A DNA stretch of 64,000 nucleotides from Psococerastis gibbosa (Eukaryota; Arthropoda; Insecta; Psocodea; Psocidae): contig OZ020487.1 in the NCBI GenBank assembly GCA_963971405.1, positions 45,543,039 through 45,607,038 on the forward strand, written 5' to 3'. Positions 2 to 32,986 of the stretch are shown here, piece by piece. A program made the position numbers and the translations under genes. Below the pieces are notes generated by a model. It was not told the DNA's origin, searched no databases, and saw nothing but the letters and a program-made list of their open reading frames with translations. Position 1 is the first letter of the stretch. Each line of letters opens with the position of its first letter.

Positions 2-3000
2 CAAGACTTCCATACGCGGCTGGACAATTTGTTACGTACCCTCGTTCATGCTCGGCCACATTTTGTCCGTTGCATTCGCAGCAACAACGTGGAGGAGGCT
101 GGTGTCTTCAGCAGACCTGTGGTTATGACCCAGATCAGGTCCCTCCAGGTTCTTGAGACTGTTAACCTCATGGCAGGTGGTAAGTACAACTTACCCGGTG
201 ATTTGGCTGTAAATTGGTTTGTTTTGCGTACCTGGTGCACGTACGGTGCCACTTTGTCCACTGACTTCACAGCCACTACGTGGAGGAGCTGTTGGCTTCA
301 GCTGGGCTGTAGTCATGGCTCAGATCAGTTCCCTGCAGGTTCGGAAGACTTATCCTCAGGTGATAAATACGAAAAATGAAGAAAACCAGGCTGTTTTTCT
401 GTACCTTAATATTATTTATTCTAATGTTGTTCATTACTTTGCCGTAGGCTATCCGCATCGAATGCGTTTCCGAGTGTTTAACGCGCGATATCGAGTTCTG
501 GCGCCACACTGCCGGCTGCGGAAAGGCGACGAGCGCATGAACGAGGACACGGCGGCCATTTTGAGTTGTTTGTCACTGAGTGCTGACCAGTCGCAGGCGC
601 ATCCGCCCGCGCCATCGTGGGCTTTTGGAAAACGTCACATCTTCTTAAGGTATATTTTTTTTCCTGTCAATGCATCTCAGTCAATTGATCTTTAGGACCG
701 CTGTCACCAGATGTAAACCAAAGGTAAACCTGTGGTAAATGGAACACCATGGTCGCTTGGAATTACAATGGGTTCCACTGTCCATGCTTGCTAGGAGTCG
801 CAGCCGTGAGTAGAGTCCTATGCATGAGAGATAGGACATTAGCTCCAGTGAAGGATATTGTTCGAATATCTGTCGCCACCAGCCACGTCTTCTTCGACCA
901 ATCACAACACGTCTCGGACACTTGGACAACAAACCCTAGCGTGACTGCATGGCGTGCTACAGTTGGTCAACAGGGTACGTGTCATTTGCTCAATCAATCA
1001 ATCAATCAATCATGTATTTAAATGTTAGAACCATATATGGCATACATTACGTCATTTTTTTATAAATTATGTCATAAGTTAAATATAATATAATATAGCC
1101 TAGTATAAGTAGCCGATGAGGATCCTTGTCAAATATTACAATACACAATTATAATTATAATTATAACTCTCCCAGCCTATCCTCTAGTGCCTCGGCCAGG
1201 GAATAGTATGCCCTCCGTATAAGAGCCTTCTTCACCCGAACCTTGAAATTGCTCCTGCTCAGTGCCTTTGTGCCTTCTGAAAGGTAATTAAAAAACTTTA
1301 TGCCCCAATAATTTCCGCAATCTTTGACTCTATTTATTCTAGTGAACTGCACCTGAAGATTTCCAGCATTTCTGGTGTTATAGTTATGCACGGCTGAGTT
1401 TGTTATATAAGAGCTTCGTTCATCGAACACATACAACAGGCATTTTAGTATGTAGGCACTGGGCAGTGTCAAAATTTCAAGTGAATTGAAGTCCTCTCTG
1501 CAGTCTTCCATGTAGCCTCTGGAGGCCAGCACTCGTATGCTTCTCCTTTGCAAGCCGAACACTCGTGTTGCATGCACTGAGTGGCCCCATACCGAGAGAG
1601 CATACTCTATATGGCTATGAAAGCATGCAAAATAGCATGAACGTAAAACGCTGACCGAGACACTGGACGACAGGCTACGTAGTAAGAAAGATAGGGAACT
1701 TAGTTTTTTGCACAATAGGTCACAGTGTGTCTGCCAGGACATGCCTGGGTCAAGATGAACGCCTAGAAACTTAACGCTCTCCACAATGTTCGGAGGCATT
1801 TCACGCATTGTAAAAACTAGATCTACAGTTTTGGCTTCATTCAATGTGAGACCGTTTGCTCAATTAAGTCGTGGCAGGTGACACTTGAAATTCAAAAAAT
1901 ATCCTTCGCTAGAGCGTTAGAACTCTAGCTGTTGGTGTTTGTGTGGTTCGGCTTACTTATACCAGGCTCCCAAGGACCGTGTCGTATGATGCCTCAGGCT
2001 CAGAGGTCAGGGTGAGTAGGAACTACCATACGACACTGAGCCCTAGCTTTACTCAACCCTGATGGCTTTTGTATAAGTGAAACGAGACATATCCCAAATG
2101 ACAACAAGTCTTGATATAAGTGGCCTGTATTGATGAACACCTGATAGAACTGAAATTAATTACTACTTTTCTCCTTTATTTTAGTGAAAGTGCACGACAG
2201 CAGCTAGAAACGCTACGGACAAATCGCCGCCACAACGCTGCAGCCCGTATCCAGGCAACATGGCGGGGCTGGAGTTACAGGAGACGGTGGCCAGCGCTGC
2301 GTAGATCTCTTACACTGCACCAGGGAAGTAGCGCGGCTGCTTCAGCGCCACTGCCTTCTACGATTGGTGAGTAGATTAACTAAATTACAACCTAATTCCA
2401 TCAGTAAAGAAAGGTTACTTTTATCTGTCAAAACAGGATAACCATGGATTATTATCCTCTTGGGAAAATGGTGATTGACCAAGTTGTGAAAGCAATTTCT
2501 CATTTTGAAATTCAGAGTACAGTCAGTACGTAAAAAAAAAAAAAAAAAACAATCCTGAACCGTTGTGCACCCTTATACTACTCAGTGTGCTCCATTATGA
2601 CCGTTTACATCCGAGCTGGGATTGGAAAGAACGTGTCAGAACGTGCACAACACTAGCTCGGATCTGTTGGGTATTGAGAGGAATGTATAGGACGAATGAC
2701 CCTTAAAATAATTAATTAATGATGTATGATGTAAATAATGATATGTAACACCTTCTTCATCATAACATCGAAGGTTTCGAAGAAGAAAAATTGGCTTAAC
2801 GGCACAAGTCAGTACTCAACCTGCCATGACACATGCTAACCTTGCTTATGTAGGCGCAAATTCCATTGACCTCATATTGCAGAATGTACTTGACGCTGAC
2901 GTGGTAGTAGACATCATTAATAAGTCTTTAATGTCTGCTACCACGTCAATGTCATGTGCATTCTGCAATACGAGGTCAATGGAATTTGCGCCTTACTTAG

Positions 3001-3961
3001 CATGTCTGTGTCCCGCGCTATTTGACCTTAATTGGAAACGATTAGTTATATTCATTTTTTATAACAGGTCTAACTGGTACTGGTGCCAAAGCGCGCACCT
3101 TAGGGAGCGGAGCCCGACCGCGGCCTCAGCCAATAGCTGGTACGCCTCCACCTGACCCCGCGGATAAATGTGACAGCAAAATGATACAGCAAACCTGCAC
3201 CTTGTTTGGTCTGGACCTGGAGAGGCCGCCTCCTGTGCCACCGAGCAGGTCTTACACCGTCACTGGCAACAGCAAGCTGGGCTACCCGCAGACGCGTGTT
3301 ATGAAGATGTCCTTCCCAGGTGGGTGTGACAAATTGACGAGAATTTCTATGCATGGTAAACCTATACCTTGTTTCGCTTGGGCCTGGAGGGACCACCTTC
3401 TGCGCCTCCTAGCAGGCCTTACACTGACACTAGTAACAGTAAGCGGGACTACCCCCAGAGACGCGTGTTATGAAGATGCGGGTCGCAAGGTGGTAGCGTG
3501 CTTGTACTTGTGCGAGTCTCTACATACCGTGCGATCGGAGACGTGTCGTAACTCGAAACAAGTAGGCTACTTATTGAGGGGACTAAAGAGGATACATTCA
3601 TTCAATTTTATGTATGCGATTAACCTTTTTTTTTTAAAAAAAAAAAAAAATGTCCTACCCATGTAGGTGTGGCAGATTGAATTGAATTAATATGCATTGG
3701 ATGTGTTAGTCCAACTAACACTTTTTAATTCATATTACACCATTGCCATTAACCTTTACCAATAGAATATTTCTCTAACATCACTCATTTATTCTTGCTG
3801 TTGCAGAAGGTACGAACGAACCCGCTCTAGCTCAAGGGGACACGGTGCTAGTGGTGGGGGCGTCTTCGCGGCGGGGGCATCTCTTGGTGGCCCACAACAA
3901 CACCTCCCTCCATGTCCCCTTCCACTTCCTGGAACTCAAATCTGGTCCGGGGAGCTTCTAA
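2..3961 (+). CDS. dachs: Dachs, unconventional myosin (class XX), C-terminal five exons
   Basis: The coding exons are 2-179, 448-649, 2185-2366, 3068-3319 and 3807-3961, and the gene starts upstream of the window. All junctions have AG/GT signals and the phases agree. The first exon encodes the end of the myosin motor (HFVRCIRSNN, then TQIRSLQVLETVNLMAGG). It continues after the splice with YPHRMRFRVFNARY, the SH1/converter region. Exon 3 has one IQ motif (AARIQATWRGW), a calmodulin-type light-chain site. Exons 4 and 5 encode the proline-rich tail (ERPPPVPPSRSYTVTG) and end in GDTVLVVGASSRRGHL and a stop. From family knowledge, Dachs is an atypical myosin at the cell cortex that acts downstream of Fat and Dachsous in Hippo growth control and planar polarity. 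The identification rests on remembered similarity of the tail; another unconventional myosin is the alternative. Confidence 0.85.
217..355 (+). pseudogene. Decayed tandem copy of the preceding dachs exon, inside the intron
   Basis: The stretch aligns with positions 28-179 along its length. Landmarks in the same order are the pairs HFVRC/HFVH, NNVEEAG/HYVEEL and VVMTQIRSLQVLET/VVMAQISSLQVRKT. In the frame matching the exon there is an in-frame TGA after HFVH. A frame shift follows before the VVMAQISSLQV part, so the copy cannot replace the real exon. It ends in CAG followed by GTGATA, which could have been a donor site. I infer an old tandem exon duplication now decaying. Confidence 0.75.
1161..1844 (-). 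mobile_element. 5'-truncated non-LTR retrotransposon, reverse-transcriptase C-terminal part
   Basis: A 227-codon open frame encodes the region after the polymerase active site of a jockey/CR1-type LINE. Recognisable blocks are SVKFLGVHLDPGMSWQTH, HSHIEYALSVWG, LQRRSIRVLASRGYMEDC, LEILTLPSAYILKCLLYV and NYNTRNAGNLQV. The YADD active site, the endonuclease and ORF1 are absent, so this is a dead 5'-truncated copy. It lies antisense inside the second visible dachs intron. The open frame suggests a fairly recent insertion. Confidence 0.85.
1862..2184. other. Intron sequence with one short inverted repeat
   Basis: This is dachs intron between the LINE fragment and the IQ exon. A short inverted repeat (GTGTCGTATG near 1980 against CATACGACAC near 2026) is the only structure. 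The pyrimidine-rich acceptor tract runs up to 2184. I see no gene. Confidence 0.4.
2367..2850. other. AT-rich intron with a poly(A) run
   Basis: The dachs intron holds a run of about 18 A near 2533-2550, possibly the tail of an eroded retroposed sequence. Nothing else is recognisable. Confidence 0.35.
2853..2992. mobile_element. Palindromic hairpin element (family FB), copy 1
   Basis: About 60 bases at each end are inverted copies of each other (GGCGCAAATTCCATTGACC against GGTCAATGGAATTTGCGCC). The centre is the core TCTTTAATGTCTGCTACCAC, flanked by its own inverted copy. The same core and related GGCG...TTCCA ends occur near 24.7, 30.4 and 32.9 kb, and the core alone near 6.4 kb. There is no open frame, so it is non-autonomous. 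It lies in a dachs intron. Confidence 0.8.
3478..3655 (+). repeat. Interspersed repeat R3, copy 1
   Basis: The segment matches 27480-27650: a GTGGTAGC..TGCTTGTACTTGTGCG block, CTCTACATA..TGCGATCGG..AC, a GGATACATTC motif and GTATGCGA before a T/A-rich tail. A third copy of the 3' end lies inverted near 35527-35585. The poly-T/A tail suggests a SINE or a LINE 3' end, but I see no clear tRNA boxes. Confidence 0.6.
3697..3775 (+). repeat. Fragment of repeat R4 (one terminus)
   Basis: GTTAGTCCAACTAAC and TATTACACCATTGCCATTAA are shared with 8003-8070, the right end of the R4 element. Only this end is present here, immediately before the last dachs exon. Confidence 0.6.
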
Positions 3962-4248
3962 CCCAGTATTTATTTCGCCGCCATCTTGCCTTGCCCGTCT
4001 TCTGCTCAATCTAAAGTCTCTTCAGTTGCCTTACCAGTGGTGTACCCATGGTGTGTTTATATGAAATTGCAATAGACTGTTTTGAAGAGACTGTTCTGCA
4101 TATGAAATCTTACGTGCTGACAACTTACTTTTGACATCAGTTAAGATAGTTTTCAATTTTTGATCGTTATAGTAATTACTCGAGTCTTCTTAAACCTTTT
4201 TACAAAATTTATATTTATATTGTAATTTGCCTAGTCGGACTAGGTAAA
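3962..4248 (+). other. Probable dachs 3' UTR
   Basis: AT-rich, non-coding sequence follows the dachs stop codon. AATAAA at about 4695-4700 is a candidate polyadenylation signal, but it lies beyond the mariner remnant, so the true end is uncertain. Confidence 0.4.
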
Positions 4249-6000: not shown

Positions 6001-6006
6001 ATATAG

Positions 6007-6080: not shown

Positions 6081-6281
6081 CCAGTAATTGATAAGATGTG
6101 GCAGGTTGCACCAGACATTTCTGGCGTTAGCGAATGTCCCAACCCTCTTTTAGAGAACTCTAGTTTAGGCCTGAGTTCTGGTAGAGGATCCTTTCTCTTT
6201 GACTGCTCTGTTTGGGATGTTGTGGCCAGCAACATCTCCAACTGCCGTCTTCCACTACCGCTGAGGTGGCTATTCCACCGG

Positions 6282-6502
6282 CTTCATTTGTGATACTGTC
6301 ACTGACGTTTGTTTTGTTTTAAGGAGACTATTATGTAGATACTTAACTTATATATTATAAATTAAGTTATAATATAGTAGAGACTTATTAATGATGTCTG
6401 CTACCATATTATAACTTAATTTATAATAGATAAGTATCTACATAATAGTCTCCTTAACACAAAACACTTAACAAACGTCAGTGACAGAATCACAAATGAA
6501 GG
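6282..6502. mobile_element. Palindromic hairpin element (family FB-like), copy 2
   Basis: Inverted arms of about 95 bases run outward from the centre near 6390. The inner arm contains AAGGAGACTATTATGTAGAT and its complement; the outer arm contains GTCACTGACGTTTGTT and its complement. The loop holds AATGATGTCTGCTACCA, almost the same core as in the other hairpins. The terminal GGCG motif is not present, so this may be a relative rather than a full member. Confidence 0.7.
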
Positions 6503-10006: not shown

Positions 10007-13000
10007 GTTTTCAGCGGTTTCCAAACCGATAGGCATAAAAATATATTTCATTGCGCTTTAAGTGTTCAATGGCCACTTTAAAATGTGGTATAGGTCCTGT
10101 GTGGGTTGTTTGAGCGCCACTATCACGAGTACCCCCATAATCACTATTCTGGCAAGCATCGGTAGCTGTAGGTGATAGGTCTATCTTCACTTCCACCGTT
10201 TTTGTGGCTTCAACTCTTTCTTCGTCCCTTTTCCTACGTATTTCTTCTGCATCTTGTTTCGATGCTAGATATTCTTGGTTCTGAGTAGGTAGCTTTAAGT
10301 GCTCTTTGTCGCCATTAAACTAAAAAAACACACACAAATAAATGCAACCTAATAGAAATAGCTTGTCTTCTGCACTCGATTATAGTATTATAGGCCTAGT
10401 ATCCTCATGTTCTAGGCCATGGTCTCTTAGTGGATAAATTTGTCAAGATATAATATTGCATAACGTGGATTACATACCCTCAAGTATGTGCCGCCATCAT
10501 ATGAATTCGAAAAGCTCAAATATTCCAGGTTACACTTTAAATAAACAAAAAATAACAAAAACTTAGAGTTTTAGAAAAACTTGTTATAACAACCCGAATT
10601 AGTAAAACCCAAATAATCGTTAAGAAATTAACTTTGTCTAAGAAACCCACTTGTGTTAGTATATAACCCTGAGCGCTTTCGGCAAGAACTGCCATCTACA
10701 GAGACATTTGCATCTTCTCCTCGAGTTGAGCAAGTCTCAAATCGCAGATAAGGTGTAACTGTGCTAGTGGGTTTCCCTCTGTAGATAGCAGTTCTTGCCG
10801 AAAGCGCTCAGGGTTATATACTAACACAAGTGGGTTTCTTAGACAAAGTAAATTTCTTAACGATTATTTGGGTTTTACTAATTCGGGTTGTTATAACAAG
10901 TTTTTCTAAAACTCTAAGTTTTTGTTATTTTTTGTTTATTAATATGAAATACCACGAAGTCACGAGTAATCTAATTATTTATACACTTTAAAAATGACTT
11001 GTTAGTTTTGTCAGAAGTGTGGGTACCAACTGCCAAGCACAAACCTAACAATGTGTATGGGCTAGCGTCTATAGGTTGAGCTCTATGACAGCTGGGTAAT
11101 TACTTACATTAGGACACTGGATGAGGTAAAGGTTTTTTCAGGGGCCGCCCGTCGGCTACTGTTGGAACAAGTTCCCTACTCGGTTAGGGAATTTTTGACG
11201 AACCCGATAATACGGTGATTGTGTTCTTTATTTATTTACTATTATTTTGTTTTAGACGACAGAAATTGATGACGACGCCGAGAAGCTAGCCCTAGCTAGC
11301 TTGAAAATGGCATGAACATATTATTATTATTTATTTGTAGCTCGCTGACGTAGGCCTTAGCCCATTGAACAGCGCAAACAAGTACCCTGGGGTACATATT
11401 CTATGGTGCTTTCGCACATACGGTTTTATACATATATTAATTGGAACTTTCTTCCCATGTCCAAGGAAGTGATCTCGCGAAGCGAGCTACTCCTAATAGA
11501 GGCACTTCCTTAAAAGAGTCAGGACTATGGAATACGAAGCATTCAAGATGCTTATATCTCAGTCCTGCGAAAGAGGGGCATTCACAAAGTATGTGCTCTG
11601 CCGTCTCGTCATGCTGGCTGCACCACCTGCACTTAGTGTCACTCAGCCTATTGAGTCTGTTCATGTGAACTCTGAATGGTCCATGGCCAGTCAGTAGAGC
11701 AGCGACCATTCTTGTAGTCCTGCGATCTGTATCTATTTTATGCAGTCCGTAGTCTTCTGCTGGGTTCCTCATGAATAGTTTAGAGTGCCGAGGTGTCGAA
11801 AATGCCCAGTGTTGTAAGAACTCTTTCTGCAGTCTTTTCCGAAGTAGGTTTTTAACATATGCTGGGCCTACAGGCAGGACTGGTTCGTTTCCTACAAAGG
11901 GTGTCTCTGCGCCTTGCCGGGCTAGTCGGTCCGCTTCTTCGTTGCCTGGGATTCCCCTGTGACCCGGGACCCAAACCAATTCGATTTCAAATTGCTGACT
12001 AGTGAGTATTTTCATCTCTTGTCTGCATTCTGCAATCAACCCAGAGTTAACCACGGGGCTTGACAACGCTAAGATGGCAGCTTGACTATCAGAGCAAATG
12101 TATACTCTATGCGTACCGTGTTGATAGCTGAGTTCGAGCGCACATCTTATTGCGAAGACTTCGGCTTGAAAGACGGACGTATAGGTGCCTAATGGAATGG
12201 CCAGCTCTGTTTTAGGGGCTTCACAAAAGACTCCTGCTCCTGCTCTCCCATCAATTAGTGAGCCATCGGTAAAGTAGACTACACTGTCTAACCTTATGAA
12301 ATCGGGCTTATCAAGGGCCCATTCATCTCGTTGGGGTAATCTAATCTTAAAACAGTCATCCAGACTGATCTTTCTGCCAATGTGATCTTGTGGCATTTCT
12401 GTTATGACTTCATCTGGTAGTATAGACGAGTCTCCTTTCCACGATCCATTTAGTTTGAGTCGCCAAAAAGCGACTTCTGCTTGGTTTTTAATGAAGAGAT
12501 GAAGTGGTGGAATGTTGAGTAGTACCTCTAAGGCTGAAGTGGGCGTGGTTCGAATGGCTCCAGTGGCACCAATGCAGACCAACCTCTGTAGTTTTTGCAA
12601 CTGTTTTTGTGCAACCCCCAGGGAAGTTCTCGTCCACCAGACAATGCAGCCATATGTAATTATTGGTCTTATAACAGCCTCATACAACCAACGGACAATT
12701 CTTGTTTTCAATCCCCATGTGGCGCTAAAAAGCCTTCGGACAATATAGAACGCTGCTGTTGCCTTGCGAATGCAGGATTCCAAGTGAGACTTCCATGTCA
12801 GCTCTCGATCTAGTATGATTCCAATGTACTTAACGGTTTCGGATACATTCAATTCATGACCTTTAACCGTCAGTCGTTTCTGGTTATGCATCAGTCTCCT
12901 ACGAGTGAAGAGTATCACTTCTGTTTTTTGAGGGTTAATGTCCAGTCCTTTCCCCTGGGACCAGGCGACGACTCTGTTGATTGCGTCTTGCATTAAGTCA

Positions 13001-16000
13001 ATAATCACATCCAGACAAATACCTATAATTATAATAGCTAGATCATCTGCATATGCTATAGTGTCGTACCTTTCGCTAGCAAGCAGATTCAAGAGTTCAT
13101 CTACAACGATGCTCCAGAGCAGCGGCGATAATACACCTCCCTCCCTGCGGGCAACCTCTCGTGACTGTGATCCAGGCCACTGCATTACCTCTCGAGGCAG
13201 ACACCATTCGACTGAGTAGTAGATGCCGAATCCACACGGTAACGCTGGTGCTTGTGTTCCGCTTTCGCAAGGCTGACTCAATCGCTTCGAAGCTAACACT
13301 GTCAAATGCCCCTTGAATGTCAAGACATGTGACCAGTGCCATCTCTCTATGACCAATCGCTCTTTCTAACTTATGAACCAGGCTATGTAGGGCTGTTTCG
13401 GTAGACTTTCCAGTTCGGTACGCGTGTTGCGCTTCGTTAAGAGGGTATCTTTTGTTGAAGTCATCTCTGATATACCATTCAACTACTCTCTCTAACGTTT
13501 TTAAAAGAAAGGAGCTTAATGTGATAGGTCTGAAGGCTTTCGGGTCAGAGTAATCAGCACGCCCTGCTTTAGGAATGAAAACAACGCGTACTTTTTGCCA
13601 CGGAGTTGGGACGTAGCCTAATTTGAGAGAAGAGCGGAAAATGAGGACTAACGCTTCCAATAATACTTCAATCCCACGCTGTAACAATACAAGGTAGATG
13701 CCATCGGGGCCGGGTGATTTATATGGTGAGAACTTCATAACTGCGCATTTTACGCTATGAGGAGTCACTATATTATTTATCACTTCAACATCAACTTCGC
13801 GAAGTGCGTTGGCTGACGGAGAACCTTTTGCGGCAGAGTCCGGGTCAGGAATAATGGTGCAGCCAGGAAAGTGTGCTTCTAGAAGGGTCTCAAGAGCTTC
13901 AACATCTTCTGATGTGTGTTCTCCATTTGGCTTGGTTATTGGGCCACTTATAAGTTGTGGCATTTTCTTAAGGCATTTCTGTAATCGGGTTGCTTCCTCT
14001 ACGCCTCCGATATCACTACAAAATTTACGAAAAGACTCATTTTTTAATCGATTTATTGTATTTTTGTATTCATTTCTTTCCTTCTTGTACGCCTTAATGT
14101 CGTCAGACTTCTTGGTGCGTTTTTGTTTATTATATAACCTTCTGGTTTCATTTCTCCTTTCCTCTACTTCGTTGTTCCACCATACTGGGACTACTACATC
14201 GGTTACTCTACTTAAGGGGCATGCTTCGTCAAAGGCTCCCGAGATTGCAGTGAGAGTACTCGAAACTAGATTTTCTAACTCCCCGATGTCATCGGGTTCC
14301 ATCACTGGCAATGCTTGCATGCGAAGTCTCAGTTCGTCCTCAAATATCGTCCAGTTCGTTTTCTTTGGATTCCGTATGCATTTATATTTACGAATAGGCC
14401 CATCATTTAGTTGGAAGAGAATATGTTTATGGTTGGCGAGAGACTCTTCTTCTGAGACCTTCCACCCAGTCACACAATTAGATAGCCGTGGAGTGCATAA
14501 CGTCAGGTCCAGTACTTCCTCCCTTATTGCATTGACGAATGTTGGTTTTCCTATTTTATTCAGGATGTGAAGATCTTGCTGTATGATAAATTCAAGTAAT
14601 TTCTCACGTCTGTCATTGACGTCTGTGCTTCCCCAAATAGTGTGGTGAGCATTGGCATCACAACAAATAATTAATGGCAGCTGCTTTGAAGAGTAGAAAT
14701 TAATTAGTCTTATGACTTCTGGAGGAGGGATATCACTGCATTCTCCTGGAAAGTATGCCGACGCAAGAACTCTTCTTGACCCATTGGGTAGCTGCAAGTA
14801 AACCGCCACAAGGTCCCTTGAAACAAAAGTAGGCACCGGGGTTACAGGCAATCGACTTAGCAACATGGTTCTCGGCCGACCTACAGAGGGACAGCAAATA
14901 ATGTTTCCACGAAAAGGGCCAAGACCCCTCAACTGACCATCAGGTCCTAACCAAGGCTCCTGAATTGCTGCAATGTCAATATTTAACTCGACAATTCTTT
15001 TCAAAAGAACTGCTGTGGCAGCTTTTGAGTGTTGAATATTTGCTTGTAGAATCTTGGTCATTCAGCTTTGTTGTCATGTATAGTACAATGGTGTGTTGCA
15101 CTATCTGTATTATTTTGTGTCTTCGGCGTGTTATCACATAAAAGACTTGATGCTGACGTTCTAACTAGGGGTAGGGAGTTTGACCTCTCTCTAAGTAGGA
15201 AGTTTGTAATTTTCCCAACGTTTGTGTCTTTATCTTCGATCTTTTTCTTTTTATCAGGTCTGAAGTTTTTTGTTGGTGACCTCAGTAGTTTCTTCGAGGG
15301 CTGAAAAGGGTCAGCCCTATCTTGAGATAATGTGGTCTGCAGCTGCGGGCTTCCTGCCTTTCTCTTCAGCTGGGGACTGTGTACAAGTACCTGTTTGCTC
15401 ACTTTTTTCAGCTGGTACAATTTTAACGGCTGCTTGAGGTTCCTTTACGTTTTTCTTACTCGGCACTGTCGCGTGAGCTTTACCGGCTTGCTTTTGGGTT
15501 CTCGCTTCCTTCCGTCGCAAGATTATATCGGAGACAGGTGTATAAACTGCCCTGCTAGTTGACCATTGCGGCTTGTTTTCATAACCGAGAAGGATCTTAG
15601 ACGACTCTTCGTCGATTCCAACCCCGAGCCTTGTTCCATGACTGTCTTCATGGCGATTGAAAATCCTCCACTGAATTGTATGAAGACGCGGGTTTTGTTT
15701 CTGAAGCTTTTTTAGAATCTCTTCATTAGTAGGCTTTTTCTTTCCTGGTAACCAAAGCACTCCTTTTACCAACTTCGGGATATCCCGCACAGGTATGGCC
15801 TGTAAGGTGTGACCTTCCCATACTTTCAGCTTAGTAACAATTTCACTGAGCCATGTTTTGCTCGCTTCATTACCAGCTGTAACAATTATATATTTGTCTC
15901 TACGAAATGTAGATATAAAGTGAGGCATACTCACGTCAACTGGCAGTGCAAATAGTTCATCGCCAATAATATCGAGAAATTCCAACTTATCCTCCTCGGT

Positions 16001-19000
16001 GATGAGCCTTGGTGGGTCGGTAAAAATCGCTAGTTGCATAGCAATATCTCCTTTTACTTTCTCGGCAAAGGACTCGCCGGTTATTTTGTGATGTCGACCA
16101 TATGGGCTAGAAGACCCAATTTCATCTGACACGCCTGGCATTTCAACCTTGATTTATCCTGATGTGTGTTCTGACGGAATATTGTAGGTCATTATTTAGA
16201 ACGGGATGGGTGTAGGTGTAAGAATAGGAGGGCCTAAAGTTGTAGATCCAGCGTTGGACAGTTATACCCCTGTCGACTGGGTTTCTATCGCCGATGTGGA
16301 GGAGGGGGGGGGGAGGGTAAAAGTTTTCACACGTTAAGGAAGTAACTCTAACATCCAACTTGTTGAAAACTTGAAGAAGACGTGGAAGAAGACAAAAGAG
16401 GCGGCAGGACGCCTGCGCAAGGAAGAAGGGAAAAATGGCGGCTATTATTATGATTTTTCGATGAGGAGACTAAATAAACGATTTGACTGATTCTTAACGT
16501 ATTGTTATTGTTAAATGAGTTGACATTTATTGGCGACCGTGATCATGGATTTCGAAACTCTAAAGAAGAAGAGATCGCCCTTGCGCATGATTGTTACAAA
16601 GATTTTGCAAGAATGTGACAAGGCTAACAAGGAAGAACGATTTGACGATTTGAAAGTAAAGATGAAGATGGTCCAATGCAAAGGTGAGGAACTTGTTCAG
16701 TTAGATGCGGCCATTTTAGATCTTATGGTTTCGTGTTCTTCAGTAACTGAAAAGGAGATTTTACACGAATGCGAGGTGGCAACCGATTATCAAGAAAGGA
16801 TTTTAGCCAGTTGTTTGTACGAAGAGCAAGAGCCTACCCGTGCATGTGCCGGTAGTGTTCAAAATAGTGATAGTGGCACTACTGAATGCCGTCTCAAACT
16901 CCCCAAGTTGAAGCTTCTTACATTTGATGGGGATCTGGAACAGTGGCTCGGTTGGTGGTCTCAATTTGAGAAAATTGACAAATCACAAGAGTTAGATGAC
17001 AGTGACAAGTTTCAATACTTGATTCAAGCGACCACAGGTAAGGCCCGTGAACTTGTTACAGGATTTCCTGCAACTGCAGACAATTATCAAAAGGTTAGAG
17101 CAGCTTTGCACGAACGTTTTGGAAATACTGACATTTTGGGAGAGTTGTATACACGTGAGTTGTTAGCTTTGTGTTTTGGGCAAGCAAAGCAAAGGAGGAA
17201 TATTCAGTTTATTCATGATAAAGTTGAAACGGCTCTTCGTGCTTTGGAAAGCCTAAATATAGATATGAAAGGTTGCTCTCCGATACTAACACCTTTAGTA
17301 GAGAGCACCTTACCGGACGATACTCTCAGAACATTTCGTCGCACGCTCAGCAGTGGTAAGCAATCGTCCCATGACAGGCTGACTGAGTTGCTTAGTTTTT
17401 TGAAAAAAGAGATAGAAACAGAACAAAGGGTCACATTAGCCGCCCGAGGATTTGAAGAAGTTGAATCAAACGTTGGCAGATCGTCTGCGCAACTTTTGCA
17501 CACCGGTGGTGCCTTAAAGTGCATTTTTTGCGACATTGTGGGGCACCAAGGACTTGATTGTCGTAAGTTTTCCTATAAGACTTTGGAAGAAAAAAGGGCA
17601 GTTTTATTGAAAAAAGGAGGTTGTTTCGTTTGTACCGGATTGAAACACAGGGCACTTGATTGCAATGCAGAGGTTAACTGCAAACGGTGCTCTGGACACC
17701 ATGTTACCATAATGTGCAACAAAAATTATCAGACTCCACAGAAACAAGAGAAGGAGGTCAGCCAAAACAGCACTTCAAAAGAAGGGAGTCCGTCCCGAGC
17801 GACTGTAACTCTTTCAACCTCTAAGGGACTCACAATTCTCCCAACAATGAAAGTACAGGTAAGGGGTCGATGGGGACAGATACGGTCGGTCAACGCCTTG
17901 TGCGACTCAGCAGCCCAATGGTCCTATATAGTGACTTCAGTTGCAGAACGTTTAGGACTCATTCCTACGCGAACGGAAACCATAGTGCATCAACTTTTCG
18001 GAGGAAAGGAGTTAGAGGCGCAGACCATGCCTGTGTATAATGTTGTAGCACTCGGGAAGTCAATGACATATGAAATTGAGGTCCTTGGTTCTGCTACCAT
18101 CTCTAACTACCAACTTGATGCTGCAGTCATACCCATTTTGAAAAGGAAGGGACTTCGTGTTAACCAATCTGATGGCCCCATTGAAATGCTGTTGGGAGCT
18201 GATATTATGGGTGCATTGCTGACTGGGGAAAAAGAACAAGTAGCAGAAGGGCTATTTATTTTTGAAACTGAGCTTGGGTGGGCAGTGATGGGACAAACGC
18301 GTGGAAGACAACCTCACCTGACGTCAGCGGTTTTCACTACTACGGTTTTGCCACAGCCTCAGGAAATGATTGAAAATTTTTGGAGTCTAGAATGTCTAGG
18401 CATAACAGATCCTGCTCAGCAAATGAAACAGTGTGAGTTGAACACCCGTGTAATGAAGGAGTTTGAAAGTAATCTTCAGTATAATAATCGACGTTATACA
18501 GTTACCTTACCATGGAAAAGCGATGAATGGAGACCTACTGTTAATAGAGACTTGGCAGAGCGTAGGTTGAAGAGTTTAACTCGGCGGTTGACCCCGGTGA
18601 TATTCGATGAGTACGCAAGAGTTTTCGAGAATTGGTTGCAAGAGGGGGTCATTGAAGGTGTTTCAAATTCTGGCTGTTACGGGCATTACCTCCCCCACCG
18701 CCCTGTGGTTAAGGAGGGCAGTTCCACTCGTGTGCGCCCTGTGTTTGATGCTTCTGCACACAAACCACATTGCCCCTCTCTAAATGACACGCTTGAGGAA
18801 GGTGTAAACTTAGTCGAAGACCTTCTATCTATTGTGCATCGGTTCAGAAAAGGCAGGTATGGGGTCTGTGCGGACATTGAAAAGGCTTTTCTTCAAATAT
18901 CCCTCCATGAATCTGACCGTGATTTCCTTAAGTTTTTATGGTGGGACGCTAATGGTCAACTAAACACGTATAGACACGCACGTGTGGTTTTCGGTCTGAA

Positions 19001-22000
19001 ACCGAGTCCGTTTCTCCTTGGAGCAGTTATCCAACACCATTTGCAGAGCCAAGAAAAAACATGGATTGTGGACAAAATGTTGAACTCATTTTATGTTGAT
19101 GATCTGGTCTGTAGTTTAGATGATTGCACGCATCTTGATGAATTTATGACCTCGTCGACTCAGATAATGGATGCTGCATCGATGAATCTTCGAAAGTGGT
19201 ATTATACGGGAGGGCCGTGTACTGATGTTCGAGTGCTGGGCTTAGAGTGGGACACCGTTGGTGACAATTTAGGTCTACACCTAAGTTGGTGGGAGAATCC
19301 GTGTTTGACTCAAACAATCACAAAGAGAGCCGTACTCAGCATGGCACAACGCATATTTGACCCACTGGGAATTGCCGCTCCGGTGACCATCATCCCGAAG
19401 ATTTTGTTGCAGCGGTTGTGGAAGAAGAAAATTGGCTGGGATGATCCTTTAGAAGACATTGAAGAGGCCAAACCGTTTTGGGACTGGGCATCCGAATTGT
19501 GCAAACTAAAGCACTTAAAGATACCACGTTGGGTAGGAGAAGAAGCCATGTCCCTACATGTCTTCTGCGACGCTAGCAAATTTGCGATAGCTTGCGTGAT
19601 ATTTGGAAAGAGAGGTAAAACAGTGAGTTTTTTACAAGCCAAATCGCGAGTAGCACCAATGGATACTACTATACCCAGATTAGAACTTATGGCTGCCGTC
19701 ATTGGGGTTCGCCTCCTCAACACAGTTCTGAAAGCAATGAACTTTCCTGAGCGTCCTAATGTAATTTTATGGTCCGATTCATCTACGGTCATCCAATGGA
19801 TCCGTCAGCATGCGGAGTGGTCGGTTTTCGTACAAAATCGAGTAAAAGAAATTCGGGAAACGATAGAAGTTGCAGAAGTACGTCACGTTCCTGGCAAGCT
19901 AAATCCAGCCGACCTACCGTCTCGTGGTTGTTCACCGCTTCAATTACTACAGTCAAAATGGTGGGAGGGCCCGAGTTGGTTGAGGGCTGATCACACATTA
20001 TGGCCTTCTGCATCCGATGAATTCGATCAAGACGAAGTCAGTCAGGAACTGAAGAAAACGGCAGTGGTCCTAAATATAGTAAGCAGAAACTCTTTGTGCG
20101 AATGGTACCACAAGTTTTCTGATTATGAGAAAATTGTTCGTATCTCAGCTTGGATGAGACGGTTTTGTAACAACGCACAACGAAAATCTGATTCGACATC
20201 GGGGAGGGAGCTTGCATTAGAAGAAGTGGTTTATGCAGAAAAGGGCCTAATGCATCTTATACAACGGGAATTTAGTGGACCCAAGGATAAACGGCTTGAG
20301 ACGCTTAATATTTGCGAAGAAGATGGACTGATCAAACTCAAGACGAGAATCACTTTAAGAGATGACATCGAAACTTTCAAGCTACCTGTCATCTTACCTG
20401 GAGAACATGTCCTCGTCAAGAGGCTAATAGAAAAGGAACACCAAAAGGCTCACGCCGGAGTGACAGCGCTACTTGCCAAACTACGGGAACGATACTGGAT
20501 TCTAGGTGGCCGGCGCTTCGTCAAAGCCATCGTACGGCAGTGCGTTATATGCAAGAGACACCATTCAAGACCACTCCAAAGACCGTTACCCCCTCTCCCG
20601 AACAACAGAATAAGAGATGCGGCACCGTTTGAAATTACTGGAATTGATTTTGCTGGTCCTTTAGTTTTAAGCTCTGGGGACAAGGTTTGGATATGTCTTT
20701 TTACATGTGCCGTTGTCAGGGCGGTTCATCTTGAACTTTGTGTTGAGCTTTCAACCATCTGTTTTCTGCAAGCACTAAGGCGGTTTGTAGCAAGACGAGG
20801 AAGATGCAGTATAATTTACAGTGACAACGGAACTAATTTTACTGGTGCAGCGATTTGATTTCTCGCGACGAAGTGACTAAATATGCAGTGAGCGAGCGGA
20901 TAAAATGGATTTTCTCGGCTCCCAGTGCTCCCTGGTGGGGAGGATGGTGGGAAAGGATCGTGGGCTTGACGAAGCAAGTGTTGCGGAAGGTCATGGGAAA
21001 TGCCTCTCTAAATTATCACGAGATGGCCACACTGCTTTGCGAGGCGGAAGCGGTGGTAAACGATCGGCCGCTGACTGATTCCGGCCAACCCGCGGAAGTC
21101 GTGGCTTTGACACCGTCTTTGTTTTTGCGAGAGCTGCGAGGAGAGGGCATCCCACAACTAGAAGAAAACGAAGTTGCCATGTTGCAACGTCGGGAACGGC
21201 ACCTACAATCGATTCGCGAAGCTCTCCGTGAGCGATTCCGAAGAGAGTACATCGGTTATCTGAAGGCCCCTAGACCTAAAAACGCTATTGGTGACTTGAA
21301 GGTAGGAGATCTTGTGCTGCTTGGATCGGAGTTGAAGAGGTTGCAGTGGCCACTGGCAAGAGTTGAGGAAATTTTTCCAGGAAGAGACGGTGTGGTGCGG
21401 TCTGCTCGCGTGCGCACGGCTAAGGGCGTTTTGACGCGGCCTACTCAATTGATATACCCTTTGGAGATGGGTCGCTGTACTGATTTAAGTGATGGAAATT
21501 TGGGCACGGATCAAGAGGACAAGAGCCCTTCTGACAACACAACGACCCGCTGTGAGATGAGTCGCTGTACTGACATAAGTGATGGAAGCTCGGACACGGA
21601 TCAAGAGGACCGGTTCCTTTCGGATAACACGACGACCCGCTGTGGCCGGGTGGTCCGGTTGCCTGCACGCCTACGCTAGAAAGAAGATATTAAGATATTC
21701 TTTGGTGGGAGGATGTTGAAAACTTGAAGAAGACGTGGAAGAAGACAAAAGAGGCGGCAGGACGCCTGCGCAAGGAAGAAGGGAAAAAATGGCGGCTATT
21801 ATTATGATTTTTCGATGAGGAGACTAAATAAACGATTTGACTGATTCTTAACGTATTGTTATTGTTAAATGAGTTGACACAACTGTATCAGTTCATTAAT
21901 TTAAAAGTGTTATAAAGTATGCTATATCACAAGGAAAAAGCACAGTAATTATCAAGACACAACCGCACCGAACAAGCATGCACGTGCACGTGCCGACGGT

Positions 22001-23495: not shown

Positions 23496-23499
23496 CGCT

Positions 23500-24628: not shown

Positions 24629-24631
24629 TAA

Positions 24632-24774
24632 GGTGCCCATTCCACATACGTACAACGTCAATGAAAATTATGAAATTGAAGGTGGTAGCAGAATTTTTAG
24701 TATGTCTTTAATGTCTGCTACCACCTTCAATTTCATAATTTTCATTGACGTTGTACGTATGTGGAATGGGCACC
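24632..24774. mobile_element. Palindromic hairpin element (family FB), copy 3, with TAA target duplication
   Basis: The element is 143 bp and almost perfectly palindromic: GGTGCCCATTCCACATACGT at the left and its complement at the right. The central core is GTCTTTAATGTCTGCTACCA with its inverted partner. TAA precedes (24629-24631) and follows (24775-24777) the element. A 3-bp TAA/TTA duplication is typical of PIF/Harbinger elements, so it may be moved by such a transposase; none is encoded here. Confidence 0.88.
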
Positions 24775-25555: not shown

Positions 25556-25559
25556 TTGC

Positions 25560-26759: not shown

Positions 26760-29700
26760 ATGGACGTGATAATAAAGGCGGAACCTGGTAAGATTGTGTT
26801 TAAATAAATTCTTAATGTAGGTGATGGAAGAAGTAGGCTGTAAAATAAAATTATTTTTGCCCAATTCTCAATTAAACACCAAAGATTTGAAATTCACTGG
26901 AATGAGGATGAATAATAATCAGTGTTATCAAATTAGAGTCGGTACCATGCGTATTACCATTAAAATAGCTTGATAACAGGTTACTACTAGACTATTATCT
27001 TCAATATCAAATCGACTGTGACGTAGGCTACTGCGAGTGCGATATGTTAGGTGATAAGACCTGTCTACTTCTCAGTCTTAGTATATTTAGGCGCAAGGTT
27101 CTAGTCTATCTGCGCTGCAAGATCTGTAAGCTTGGTTTGTTATAAACTTTACTGCTGTTAAAATGCGTAAAATCCCTCTATTCCGCTCCGCCACTGGTTT
27201 TTTTAACACTTCCCCGGATTTCCTGTTTGACGATTTTACTTTATACTTTCTTGTCGATTGCTTTAATGTATAATTTAACAGAAATATATATTTACTTATT
27301 TATGTGTGCAGTAACATGATAAAGTATTCCTCAATAAGCACGGTAAAATCTAAACTTTACTGCTGTTTAAATAAACTGACCAAACCACACTTACCTGTGA
27401 AACATAATACTTTCACCCATTTCTTGACATTTCTGAAACCTATTTGTGCAATTTTACGCAGAAGAAGACGGACTACGATGGCATTGTGGTAGCTTGTTTA
27501 TACTTGTGCGTGTCTCTACATATCATGCGATCGGTGACCTGTCGTTACTCAACACAGGTATTGCCTACAGAGGCGACTGAAAAGGTTATTCCGTTATTCG
27601 GATACATTCGTTGAACTGTTTGTATGCGAATAATTTTTTTTTTTAATGATTAGACAAATTAAATAACAGGCAATGCAATGAAACATGCATTAAACACATT
27701 CAACACAATGCAGCCGGCTATCTTTTGCCATACCAAGCTTATTTGTCACGTGACAAAATGCAGACATTTGTCGTACGTGGGCTAGGTAGGTGTCGTGGTA
27801 GTAATCCATGTAAATCAATGGGTTGTACGAATTTGGACAGCAGTAAAGATTAGAATTAGCAAGCGAAAATTTACCTGGGGTCCTGGAGTCTCTCCCAGGG
27901 GAAATTAATTTGCCAAAGGCGTGAGGCTTGTTAGAGTTGAAGTATATTAAGAGCTAAAAACCGAATGCGACAATGACGTCAGCTGTTACTGTCATATGTT
28001 CTTAAAGCCATTAATATTATCCTGTACATTTGAGTGAAGAAGACGGCTCTAATTACGCTGGGAGTGGCATTATAACCTATTTCTGTATGCATATTTACTT
28101 GGCTGAGTTTCAGAGTCCGCTTCCGAAGATGAAACAGATGATTCAACTACCTCGGAGTCAGACACTAGCCTGCCGCCCGAGGAAGACGAAATCAATAACA
28201 ACCCGAGTCAAATCATTTCTGTCGAGTCGAACCTGCACCGAAACTCAGAACATGGGGATAACTTCGATCTGGGCACATTTCTATGCAGCGGACCCTGGGC
28301 TGCCGATACTACCATTAAAATTGTCGACGTCCAGGGAAGCGAAGTTAACATAGCTGAGGACGACTTGAAAGGCTACCGCTGCCACGTATGCAAGAAGGTA
28401 TTTACCGAGAAAGTTAACATGCTCGACCATATTGCTGGCCACGTCGACGAATTGCCCTACTGCTGTGACGATTGTGGGAGACGTTTTCGCGATAAGTCCG
28501 CTCTGCGAAAACACAGTTATACTCATACGGGGCTTAAACCTTTTCCTTGTCCTATCTGTGAGAAACCTTTTGCGCTCCAAAGTAATTTAAGGAAGCATGT
28601 AGAAACGCATTCGGCAGATAAACCGTTTAGTTGTGAAATTTGTGACAAAAAATTTAAAAGGCAAGCCCATTTAGAAAACCATGTAATACTCCATACTGGC
28701 GAAAAGCCATATTCGTGCCAATACTGTGATAAAAAATTTTCCCACAGCTATGGTGTGACGTCGCATATCATGTATGTTCACACGAAAGAGAAACGGTTTT
28801 TCTGTGAGTACTGCGGAAAGGGATTCTGCTCGAAAAAAGACTGTACCATTCATACTAGGGTTCATACAGGGGTGAAGCCGTACCACTGTCTGCACTGTGA
28901 ACAGGCGTTTAGCTCACAACACCGTTTACATCAGCATTCAAGCGTGCATACAAACGAGCGTCCACATACCTGTCACATCTGCTCAAAGAGCTTTAGGCTT
29001 TTGGGTAATTACAAAAACCACTTGCTTATGCACGCAGGCGTTAAACCCCATATTTGCGATGATTGTGGCGCGAACTTTACGACAAGGGCTAATTTGTGGA
29101 GTCACCGAAAAATTCATGACGATCTTAAGCCTTTTAGCTGCGACTTTTGCGGCACTGCCTTTAAGCGAAAGAAGGACTTGCAAATACACACTTCTGTGCA
29201 CTCGGATGATAGACCCTATACCTGCGAGTACTGCCCAAAATCGTACAAACGACAGTCCCATTTGCGTGTTCACTTACAGACAGCGCATTCAGATCTACGT
29301 CCCTTTTCTTGCCACCAATGCAACAGAACATTTAAACTTCGGGCTAACTTAAATAAACATCTGCAATGTCATACTGGCGTTAAGCCGTTTACCTGTAAGA
29401 TTTGCTCGAAAGGTTTTGTCGCTAAAGGTAACTTAAAAATCCACCTTAGGTCCCATTCTGGTGAACGCCCTTATAGCTGTAAAATTTGCAAAAAGACTTT
29501 CTCCCAAACGGCGAATAGAAACACGCATATGCTCACGCATGGCGCTAAGAAGAATTTCATATGTGAGGTTTGCAATAAAGCGTTTTATAAACGCGATTAT
29601 TTGTTTCTCCACATGATGACCCATACAAAGGAAAAACCGTACTCGTGTACCTTTTGCCATAAGCGATTTCGCAGTAATGGCAATATGGTGGTTCACGTTA

Positions 29701-29981
29701 GAACTCATACTAGAGAACGGCCATATGGCTGTGATTATTGCGGAAAAAGTTTTTCGCAGAGGGGGGCTCTGGTTGTTCATATTCGATGTCACACAGGTTA
29801 TAAGCCCTATGATTGCGAACTGTGTCACAAGGGATTTCATAGTAAAGGAAATTTGAATAAGCATATGATTACACATGACCCGGATCGGTATTTGTATTGC
29901 CATTTTTGTCATGATGTTTTTGTTTATAAAGAGAAATTGCTACGGCATTTGGAAGCTCATATGAAGAAGGAACGTTTTTAG
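26760..29981 (+). CDS. C2H2 zinc-finger protein with 19 fingers
   Basis: Exon 1 (26760-26787) is 28 bases: MDVIIKAEP plus one base, then GTAAGA. Exon 2 (28114-29981) follows TTTCAG and restores the frame as GAG, giving KAEPESASEDETDD. The product is 631 residues. The first ~95 after the start are acidic and serine-rich (DSTTSESDTSLPPEEDE), with no ZAD domain. Nineteen consecutive C2H2 fingers follow, beginning CHVCKKVFTEKVNMLDHIAG and ending CHFCHDVFVYKEKLLRHLEA. Most are joined by TGEKP-like linkers (HTGEKPYSC, HSGERPYSC, HTRERPYGC). This predicts a nuclear sequence-specific DNA-binding protein. I do not recognise an ortholog. The tiny first exon is supported by phase, splice signals and the IKAEP motif common at the start of such proteins. 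Confidence 0.85.
27160..27196 (-). repeat. Terminus of the CAGTGGCGGAGCG hAT MITE family
   Basis: The minus strand reads CAGTGGCGGAGCGGAATAGA, the same end as the elements at 34677 and 51299. I did not find the second end of this copy. It lies in the zinc-finger gene intron. Confidence 0.5.
27480..27650 (+). repeat. Interspersed repeat R3, copy 2
   Basis: The sequence matches 3478-3655 (GTGGTAGCTTGTTTATACTT, then GCGATCGGTGACCTGTCGT) and ends in a poly-T tract. It lies within the intron of the zinc-finger gene. Confidence 0.6.
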
Positions 29982-30190
29982 TTGTACTCAGGCCTCAACT
30001 TAAGATATTCAAGCAATCAAATTATATTGATTTTCGACACGAAGTCCAATTTAACTGTCTACTAGTGGTAAAGCGGTGAAGAACCACCCCCATCCTCCAA
30101 GCATGGTTGTGCCCTCCCGGTAAGGAATACTGAACGGCTATACATTGTTAGATGAAGGTGCTAAGCCTAACGCTGGTGAGAACGCTCCTA
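29982..30190. other. 3' flank of the zinc-finger gene
   Basis: The sequence following the stop codon is non-coding. I see no strong AATAAA before the next repeat begins. Confidence 0.35.
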
Positions 30191-30336
30191 ACGCCCCGTG
30201 CCCAGGTTTTTGTTTGGGAGGGGGTCCAAAATGTTTTTTACATATTTGGTAAATGATAGTCCATTCTAACCAGTATTTTTACTTTTATTTCGGAAGGGGT
30301 CCGGACCCCTTGGACCACCTCCCTGGGCACGGCCTT
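30191..30336. mobile_element. hAT-type MITE, second copy
   Basis: The ends CGCCCCGTGCCCAGG and (other strand) CAAGGCCGTGCCCAGG match the element at 24928, and the interior has the same GGGGTCC/GGACCCC blocks. The flanking 8 bases agree only in part (CGCT....), so the duplication is eroded. Confidence 0.75.
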
Positions 30337-30375
30337 GCGCTGTTGGGAGCGGTCCTAATTAGTTATTCTTTCTAA

Positions 30376-30759
30376 GGCGCCCATTCCACCGACCGGCTAG
30401 GACTATTTACAAAAACAGTGACGTGGTAGCAGACATTCAAGACTTAGGCGGGGTTTCCACCGACCTCGCATTGCAGAATTGACGGAAATGTTTATTTTCC
30501 TCTATGCTATAGTTAAAATTGATCAATGATCATACAGTAAAATCACAAACAAACAAACTAAAATTAAAAAATGGCGTCATGGGATATGTCAAGCACAAAC
30601 ATTTTAATAGATTTATATTAAAAGAAAAATTCTAATTTCCGTCAATGTCATTTGCATTCTGCAATGCGAGGTCGGTGGAAACGCCACCTAAGTCTTGAAT
30701 GTCTGCTACCACGTCACCGTTTTTGTAAATAGCCCTAGCCGGTCGTTGGAATGGGCACC
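30376..30759. mobile_element. Nested palindromic hairpin elements (family FB), copy 4
   Basis: The outer element has ends GGCGCCCATTCCACCGACC and its complement, flanked by TAA on both sides (30373-30375 and 30760-30762). Near its centre, between the two core copies (GCAGACATTCAAGACTTA and TAAGTCTTGAATGTCTGC), sits a second element (30447-30687). That one has ends GGCGGGGTTTCCACCGACC and GGTCGGTGGAAACGCCACC. Its interior of about 170 bases is AT-rich and non-coding. Confidence 0.82.
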
Positions 30760-30762
30760 TAA

Positions 30763-32510
30763 GTTATGTAAATAAGGAATACACTAGTATCGGCTTATCC
30801 TATAAAGGAAGGAAAATGGGCCTAGCCTAGTTTAGTTAATTTTTTCTTGTTGGTTTTTAAGTTTGAATCTTTAATCAATAGTTTAATGTTGGTATGTTAA
30901 CCTGGGTGTGCTATATATTTTCCAAGTTTTAATGAAGTTATTCATTAATTATTTAATACATTGTTAATCAGCGTTGAGCTGCATTACCTTATGCAAATAA
31001 TTGAAAATTTTAATTGATAGTTTAATTTTGGTATGTTATCTGGTTATATCTATATATATATATAATTACATATATATGGTTATATATTATAATTTCCGAG
31101 TTTTAAAGAAGTTATTTATTATTTATCAATAGAAGGGAGAAAACCTTAAAATAAAAATTAAATATCAGGAAAAATCGATCGTAGAGCTGTCAAAGATATC
31201 ACATTAGCGGTTCCTCTACATTTTGTTTTAAGAAATTATAACAATCCGTTTATTTTTTTTTTTTTAACTTTGAAGAAAAGTTGATGTGCCCCCTCATGCC
31301 AGTGGCGTGCGAGGGTAGCACTCAAAATGTGTCCGTTTATATAGGTGTGACTGTGCCAGTACAAATATACGAATACGGTATATACTATAATATATTTTAA
31401 CACCTCTCCTCTTCTTCCAAAGATTGGCGATGATCATGGCAATTGTAGTCATGACTATACTAGAGAATTGTAGTGCAGTAGTTTCCCGTTGCTTTCTGCC
31501 GTTGACTTTTCATTGAGTCAAGTTAAGTTATTGTTACTCTATTTTGGAAAGCAGAAAGTATGGTATCTAGGAGAATGCATTTAGTTTAACTTGTTTTCTT
31601 TTCATAACTTTATTTGATTTCCCCTTAAATGGTGATTTTTTTTAAAACTATTGTACTGAGCATTTAAAATCGGTGCATTAACAACGCTTAGTATCGTATT
31701 TCGAGTTCGATTTGGGGCATTATTTATTGTTGTTATTCTATTATTTTCAGTGCTACTAAAAATAAATGTGTGTCACTAGGTGATAATTTAAATACACTAA
31801 AAAAATCACTAAAACTGTTTTATTTTTTTAGTTATATCTTCCTAAAATAAAATTAAAAAAAATAGCGTGCGTGTATCGGTGTCCACATGTGAAACTTCAT
31901 TATGAATTCATTTTGCGAAAAATGATCTAGGCCTACTACAATATATTTACAGCTTTACAGAGATTGGTTAAGTAAAGCTACATTTGATTAATTTTAAGCA
32001 AAAGGCTTTTATTATTATAAACATGTATACAAATAATTCAATTATTTTATTTTACCTTATTGTTGCTAAGATTATAATAGCATTTCATTTCATTGTATTG
32101 GTTGTCTGTAAGTCGGTTTACAGACAATAGTTTAACGTGACAACGCCTAAATTACTAAATTTCACTTACATAATAAATGGCTGGAAAGAGAAAGAAATGT
32201 GGAAAAGCCCTTAACTTAAGGGCCTTAAGTAGTTTGAATTTTTTAAATAGATAATAACGCAGCCGAAAAAGACATATTTTTGTTGAAAATCGTGCGCACC
32301 CCCTGAAGTTTCACACAAGAGACATGGGTATAATTTAAATTGAGATAGGCCTTCTACATCTGCCCAACAATGAGCGTCATCCATGAGTACAGAAATCAGG
32401 ATGGCGCGTAACCATGATGCGTAACCAACATGGCGCGTAACAAATTGTTTCTCCCTACGTCGATAAATAAGTTTCACTTCAAAAAGTATTGACTTTGGTT
32501 GTTCTATTAC
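30763..32510. other. Gene-free AT-rich block
   Basis: The stretch contains a short TA microsatellite (about 31051-31075) and poly-T/A runs. ATCGATCGTAGAGCTGTCAAAG near 31172 has relatives near 45755 and 61995. The block near 31425-31460 (GATTGGCGATGATCATGGCAA) has a partial match near 61275. No coding region was found. Confidence 0.4.
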
Positions 32511-32515
32511 CAAGC

Positions 32516-32650
32516 CAACCTAGAGGAGTTAGGACTATACACTTAACTTATACTCAACTAGTAAGACCCAGGACCGCCTGCTTTACATACCCTCCGGAGC
32601 ATAGCCAGAAAATGTGGCATGTGTGGGACTCGAATCAATAACTTTTCGGG
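32516..32650 (-). mobile_element. tRNA-derived SINE, copy 3 (minus strand)
   Basis: Read on the minus strand, the copy has the box B region GATTCGAGTCCCACACATG, then TTTTCTGGCTATG, GGAGGGTATGTAAAGCAGGC and the GAGTATAAG tail. It matches the SINEs at 8683 and 39524. The 5' tRNA-like half is partly lost. Confidence 0.75.
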
Positions 32651-32862
32651 CTGGGTATTTCTGACTAAAATAATTCCTCGTTTCAGCCTCAAAACTAGGT
32701 AAATGGTCTGATGAAAAATATGAGCTTTCGTATAAAATTTTCATTTTTGCACCCAAATAATAAGAGTGGGCCGAAAATTCGCCATGTGGAAAATAAAGAC
32801 TATCTTCTTTCTTCTGTCTTTCCTAACTATTATTACTCTACAAAACCATGAAAGTGTATTAA

Positions 32863-32986
32863 GGCGGGGTTTCCACATACGTCAGTGGTCAATGGTAAAT
32901 ATGGTTTTGACGTTTTTAGTGTGTCTTTAATGTCTGCTAAAACTCATTAAAAATCATTAACCATTGACGCATGTGGAAACCCCGCC
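32863..32986. mobile_element. Palindromic hairpin element (family FB), copy 5
   Basis: The ends are GGCGGGGTTTCCACATACGT and GCATGTGGAAACCCCGCC. The core is GTGTCTTTAATGTCTGCTAA. TTAA lies on both sides, containing TAA and TTA, so a duplication of 3 or 4 bases fits. There is no coding sequence. Confidence 0.85.

Follow-up and report, generated by a model that had tools for sequence, protein, structure and literature searches.

What keeps the two arms of a short palindromic element alike when the arms of its relatives are different? The question is raised by a 64,000-nucleotide stretch of the genome of the psocid Psococerastis gibbosa (positions 45543039-45607038 of contig OZ020487.1, here called the window), in which four loci carry hairpin elements built around a common core, GTCTTTAATGTCTGCTACCA. 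From this stretch the original prediction was that blocks of arm sequence pass from copy to copy and that symmetry is then restored. Comparison across the 409-Mb genome shows a single core shared by families whose arms differ yet are self-complementary. These hairpins are best read as members of a superfamily of non-autonomous cut-and-paste transposons present in very large numbers, hairpin miniature inverted-repeat transposable elements (MITEs) with PIF/Harbinger-like flanks. Their arms change in concert, probably by foldback in source copies, in which one arm is the template for the other.

Abundance and structure of the hairpin elements

The genome search with core and ends that the original prediction had called for recovered a very large superfamily. 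With up to 2 mismatches allowed, the core has 16,025 forward and 16,014 reverse sites (32,039), against none for the reversed control. Composite copies, such as that at 30376 in the window, yield two core sites, so there are fewer elements than sites. The end sequence of the elements is GGYGNNNWTTCCA, and the end pattern TWAGGYGNNNNTTCCAYNNACSTC has 25,428 matches in the genome and none in the reversed control, the two ends of one element counting twice.

Most of the copies compared came from a single contig (C1), found via the exact core among the first 100 core places. Loci that lay within other loci or duplicated them (L001, L002, L005-L007 and L025) were skipped. Two ends could not be recognised in 33 of the 97 core clusters, which were left out; the remaining 64 copies gave 55 distinct sequences of 105–165 nt and 60 distinct flank pairs. 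Within this length filter 52 of the 55 are 124–149 nt and 44 are 136–145 nt, with extremes of 110 and 162 nt. All but one (54 of 55) have TTCCA, with one mismatch allowed, at both ends. One alignment (A1) holds 44 of the 55 copies and a second (A2) the 20 copies of exactly 140 nt; covariation was counted on the second alone.

The order of parts from the outside inwards is GGYG, a 4-nt variable block, TTCCA, a short variable piece and a semi-conserved piece. These are followed by a highly variable stretch, which in copies of 140 nt spans positions 22–44, then by a conserved stem around TTGACGTGGTAGCAGACAT and an asymmetric loop (ATTTTTAGACTGTCTTTAAT and variants), after which the mirror image follows. 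Short iterations such as GTCAATAGTCAATAG are present in some arms. Position 1 is G in 104 and position 2 in 106 of the 108 ends of the 54 sampled copies, which is partly by construction as a GGYG-type motif was used to locate the ends. The same 108 ends carry 19 kinds of outer 4-nt block, and the two choices of outer block seen in the original prediction are therefore a sampling effect.

Concerted change of the two arms

The predicted pattern, in which arms differ between copies and agree within a copy, holds far beyond chance. Across the 20 copies of 140 nt, 93.4% of the stem cells pair, compared with 78.9% when the 3' letters are shuffled, and sliding the partner by 1–3 columns lowers pairing to 31–48%. 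Half of the stem pairs (30 of 60) have changed on both sides. The cells with a double change number 182, where shuffles give 64 ± 6.8, and at least 46 mirrored changes are required if these were single, fewer if they were en bloc. One stem pair was also counted genome-wide with four exact 58-nt patterns of one loop type, giving 23 C..G, 296 T..A, 9 T..G and 6 C..A. It is mirrored in 319 of these 334 exact cores, and the C..G count is about 8 times the 2.8 expected from independent sides (computed by hand), although shared descent inflates both this result and the covariation count. Over all 55 copies, the median arm identity is 46/50 within a copy and 34/50 between copies, and in 24 copies the own partner arm is unsurpassed.

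Symmetry depends on the distance between the copies compared. Among the 20 copies, the closest pairs (up to 8 differing pair-positions) have 88 differences, of which 15 (17%) are mirrored and 66 are one-armed. The mirrored share is 43% in the next class, 61–68% for distant pairs and 48% for the five most distant. In a series of related arms, 4 of the 7 differences between L027 and L057 are mirrored. Near relatives thus differ mostly on one arm while distant families differ mostly in mirror, so symmetry seems to belong to source lineages, and decay in resident copies seems to affect the two arms separately. This argues against a steady repair of every resident hairpin. It leaves either arm copying around mobilisation or the preferred mobilisation of symmetric copies.

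The ratio of within-copy mismatch to diversity at positions 1–21 of the 54 copies is 0.15–0.37 at variable positions and 0.77–1.03 at conserved positions, where variants are seldom common to both arms. An escape of the ends from correction was considered and rejected, mismatches being 32 of 216 at positions 5–8 and 25 of 216 at positions 14–16 and 19 (p = 0.39).

Hairpin elements in the window

The window holds hairpin elements at 2853-2992, 24632-24774, 30376-30759 (whose loop contains the nested element 30447-30688) and 32863-32986, all given on the plus strand. Core matches with up to 3 mismatches number 5, where 0.01 are expected; the five matches are four elements, two of them being halves of one. 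The DNA folding of three of the elements, relative to shuffles, has z = -17.0, -22.8 and -8.4. The four loci of the original prediction are therefore real palindromes, but the near-perfect symmetry claimed for them is not found in all, nor is the core exact in all. The core is exact only at 2924..2943 and 24704..24723 (both plus strand). It has one mismatch in each half of the 30376 element (30424..30443 on the minus strand and 30692..30711 on the plus strand) and two in the 32863 copy (32923..32942, plus strand). Ungapped arm complementarity is 98% at 24632, 94% at 30376 and 86% at both 2853 and 32863.

The hairpin at 2853..2992 is 140 nt long, with outer block CAAA, next block TTGACC and flanks GTA/TTA. 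The near-perfect hairpin at 24632..24774 (143 nt) has CCCA followed by CATACGT and is flanked by TAA on both sides. The outer element at 30376..30759 has CCCA followed by CCGACC, also between TAA and TAA, and its loop is interrupted at CTTAAG (TTA..TAA) by the nested element at 30447..30688. This nested element is 242 nt long with a core-less interior, and has the ends GGCGGGGTTTCC and GGTGGCGTTTCC; its right end had been given as GGCGGGG and is in fact GGTGGCG. The hairpin at 32863..32986 is a decayed one of 124 nt, with GGGT followed by CATACGT. Its flanks are TTAA/TTAA, which read as triplets are TAA/TTA, i.e. crossed. All four end combinations named in the original prediction occur in the window, but a rule of two choices fails beyond it, and the 2853 copy brings a third outer block and a third next block. 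A related copy placed at 6282 is present as a degenerate or nested hairpin at 6265..6501 (plus strand), which starts at 6265 with the left end GGTGGCTATTCC and carries the core half AATGATGTCTGCTACCA. Inspection by eye revealed no right terminus matching this left end; a relative with two good ends is located at L011:9208-9465.

The window also contains other mobile elements and reading frames. A BEL/Pao-type retroelement occupies 16530-21679, with an open reading frame (ORF) at 16530-20858 encoding Peptidase_A17, RVT_1 and integrase zinc-finger domains and a further ORF at 20855-21679. A retrotransposon lacking long terminal repeats (non-LTR) lies at 11437-15061 on the minus strand. Its ORF at 13097-15061 has endonuclease and reverse transcriptase domains and is overlapped by an ORF at 11437-13356. 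The ORF at 28365-29981 is of the C2H2 zinc-finger type by homology, and that at 52044-53102 has a NUP50 domain.

Hybrid and nested copies

The two ends carry different outer blocks in 20 of the 54 copies, in some by one letter and in others by the whole block (CCCA/GGTA in L010, L011, L029 and L082; GGGA/CTTA in L078). Hybrid copies include L043, L029, L078, L079 and L082. In L043 the left and right arms come from two different families, and its flanks (TTA/TAA) are unequal, as expected for recombination in place. No second copy of this chimera was seen among the 40 of 1620 candidates scored, the best other match being 90%, and the five next-best matches examined (L077-L081) are not the chimera. 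Recombination in place as the only source of hybrid ends was rejected, since equal flanks are found in 9 of the 20 copies with unequal blocks and in 13 of the 34 others (p = 0.78). As copies with unequal blocks keep equal triplets as often, some probably moved as hybrids.

The nested layout of the 30376 element is seen again at several loci that share its loop and inner element and differ in their outer blocks. This recurrence may have come about through independent insertions into one palindromic site of the loop. The element at L012:3114-3423, with TAC on both sides, looks like a recombination product of the outer and nested left arms.

Exchange of blocks inside the arms was assessed with a distance test of the pairwise homoplasy index (PHI) type, in an implementation of our own, on 39 left arms, 40 left arms with the loop, 37 right arms and the 20 equal-length copies. 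There was no significant signal (p 0.056–0.77), although saturation could hide one. Block exchange was rejected as the main process, compatibility not decaying significantly with distance, and most block combinations are explicable by divergence with recurrent change. Of the exchange and symmetrisation originally proposed, the hybrid copies bear out a part and the arms themselves give no significant sign. Template switching or hairpin repair, suggested as the means, fits the data but is not demonstrated by them.

Flanking sequences and class assignment

Of 60 copies, 27 have the same 3-mer on either side, where 16.1 are expected, and in 22 of these 27 it is TAA or TTA. Duplications of 4 bp next to the ends are found in 2 of the 60 and duplications of 5 or 6 bp in none. 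TAA or TTA stands on both sides of 34 copies, agreeing in 22 and crossed (TTA..TAA or TAA..TTA) in 12. The crossed share (12 of 34) is close to that for independence of the middle base. The flanking triplet could therefore partly travel with the element.

PIF/Harbinger MITEs are short, with inverted ends beginning GG and a 3-bp TWA duplication. The hairpin elements have the 3-bp TWA duplication, the terminal inverted repeat starting with GG and the short, high-copy form. The suggestion of a PIF/Harbinger transposase, drawn from TAA/TTA flanks, is upheld as to the 3-bp, mostly TWA duplication; no transposase with matching ends appeared in the 13 loci viewed of 150 matches to the PF13359 (DDE_Tnp_4) profile that were scored. 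Membership of Harbinger consequently rests on the flanks and the terminal letters.

The PF13359 elements viewed (13 of the 150 matches) were rejected as an autonomous partner, since the 12 best loci belong to a single repeat family with the hairpin as a TTA-flanked insertion in its interior. In all 12 of these loci (L064-L075) the hairpin is a passenger in the DDE_Tnp_4 repeat and stands at one fixed place, which probably reflects one inherited event. A YqaJ domain, of the kind present in ISL2EU elements, adjoins in the L066 repeat. The 13th locus, L076, has no convincing ends within the 3.5 kb examined. It has a separate, unrelated inverted repeat at 676-910, beside the DDE_Tnp_4 ORF.

Origin of the symmetry

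The explanation that is probably correct is that of hairpin MITEs with concerted arms. Selection on mobility would keep the termini (GGYG and TTCCA) and perhaps the stem core, leaving the rest of the arm free to change. In source copies one arm would be copied onto the other during replication or repair tied to mobilisation, and foldback or template-switch synthesis may start in the conserved core stem, as in quasi-palindrome correction. Nested loop insertions and hybrid ends would reshuffle the modules further. The copying step is inferred, and we favour it since the alternative calls for matching double mutations over and over again. As the loop mostly stays asymmetric, copying must stop short of it.

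Several observations weigh against this explanation. The shuffles ignore shared descent, which makes the number of independent mirrored events uncertain. In 31 of the 55 copies, with families pooled, the arm of another copy is a better match than the own partner arm. The loop is asymmetric in most aligned copies, and position 3 (GGCG or GGTG) is hardly mirrored, with a ratio of 0.84. No intermediate of foldback copying was seen, and the 13 PF13359 loci viewed include no autonomous element with hairpin ends and a Harbinger transposase. Position 3 is T in 18 of the 108 ends and position 4 is A in one, so that simple CpG decay does not explain the former.

It is unlikely that selection, rather than correction, accounts for the symmetry, with arms mutating independently and only near-perfect palindromes mobilising well, for example as a DNA hairpin or cruciform. 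The one-armed differences of the closest relatives (66 of 88) are consistent with it, and the conserved blocks imply selection on mobility. The present data do not separate selection from correction. However, each of the 46 or more mirrored changes in the 20 copies would take two independent matching mutations, and cut-and-paste transposition normally needs terminal sequences only. Copies with unequal blocks also have equal triplets as often as the others, although the block is only part of the arm. Exchange of arm blocks between copies followed by symmetrisation is quite unlikely, even though L043 unites the arms of two families, 20 of the 54 copies have unequal outer blocks, one composite body occurs with several outer blocks and L012:3114-3423 looks recombinant. 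Incompatibility within arms has no significant dependence on distance, and the L043 chimera, with its unmatched flanks, was not found again among the 40 of 1620 candidates scored.

The poor alignment of the middle of the arms between distant families could point to separate origins, each family having arisen when a transposon end was duplicated in inverse orientation and combined with the common core. This is very unlikely in view of the common length of about 140 nt, the common core and the related arm series with few mirrored changes (L027/L057). Maintenance of the hairpin by selection at the RNA level, as a hairpin RNA or a source of small RNAs, is highly improbable. The stems are very stable when folded as DNA, but 25 of the 54 transition-type mismatches are G.T, the share expected if wobble pairs are not preferred, and T..G (9) and C..A (6) are similarly represented at the stem pair counted genome-wide. 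This lack of preference argues against RNA-level selection. Rfam families had no matches at gathering thresholds across the window.

Within the arm-copying explanation, a tentative and rather doubtful extension is that the palindrome renews itself whenever a family is founded, with the core as its functional part. Following excision, synthesis would copy one arm, fold at the core stem and recopy it as the other arm. If so, perfect hairpins would be regenerated, and any mutation could be fixed in both arms in one step.

Comparison with known elements

The elements resemble PIF/Harbinger (Tourist-like) MITEs in their short length, their inverted ends starting with GG, their 3-bp TWA flanks and the lack of visible coding capacity, as judged from length alone. 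They are unlike them in that the inversion spans nearly the full length, the arms are family-specific yet mirrored within a copy, a single core is common to the sampled families and no matching autonomous element was found among the 13 PF13359 loci viewed.

REPINs have a palindromic structure and are paired with a transposase. They are miniature mobile DNA, as are the hairpins described here, but are bacterial and short (PMC3116915, in the part consulted). Palindromic MITE-like elements have been described in Anopheles (PMC3212995). In the Galileo element of Drosophila, the inverted repeats of one copy are 98–100% alike, there are subfamilies and recombinant forms, and chimeric copies lack matching flanking duplications (PMC3573991). 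The P. gibbosa hairpins thus share with Galileo/Foldback, as far as described in that text, near-identical inverted repeats within a copy, subfamilies, recombinants and chimeras with unmatched flanks. The ends of Galileo are long and contain internal repeats, its target duplications span 7 bp, and it is classed in the P-element superfamily (PMC3573991). The P. gibbosa elements have neither such ends nor a 7-bp target duplication, being about 140 nt in total with 3-bp flanks. Pair-by-pair covariation, as measured here, is absent from the Galileo text examined (PMC3573991). The mitochondrial palindromes of Nematomorpha have perfect inverted-repeat arms that are kept alike, with template switching as a possible cause (PMC6649704, in the part consulted). 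These are coding and mitochondrial, unlike the mobile, multi-family element of a nuclear genome described here.

Other systems already provide examples of concerted palindrome arms and of chimeric inverted repeats. No report of mirrored covariation in a MITE superfamily was found in a literature search by title and start of abstract, which covered few subscription papers. Why MITE hairpins stay palindromic is unsettled in the literature found. With many arms around one core in a single genome, counts of mirrored and one-armed changes can separate correction, selection and exchange. If foldback copying is the cause, mutations arrive in mirrored pairs, which would alter the dating and classification of families.

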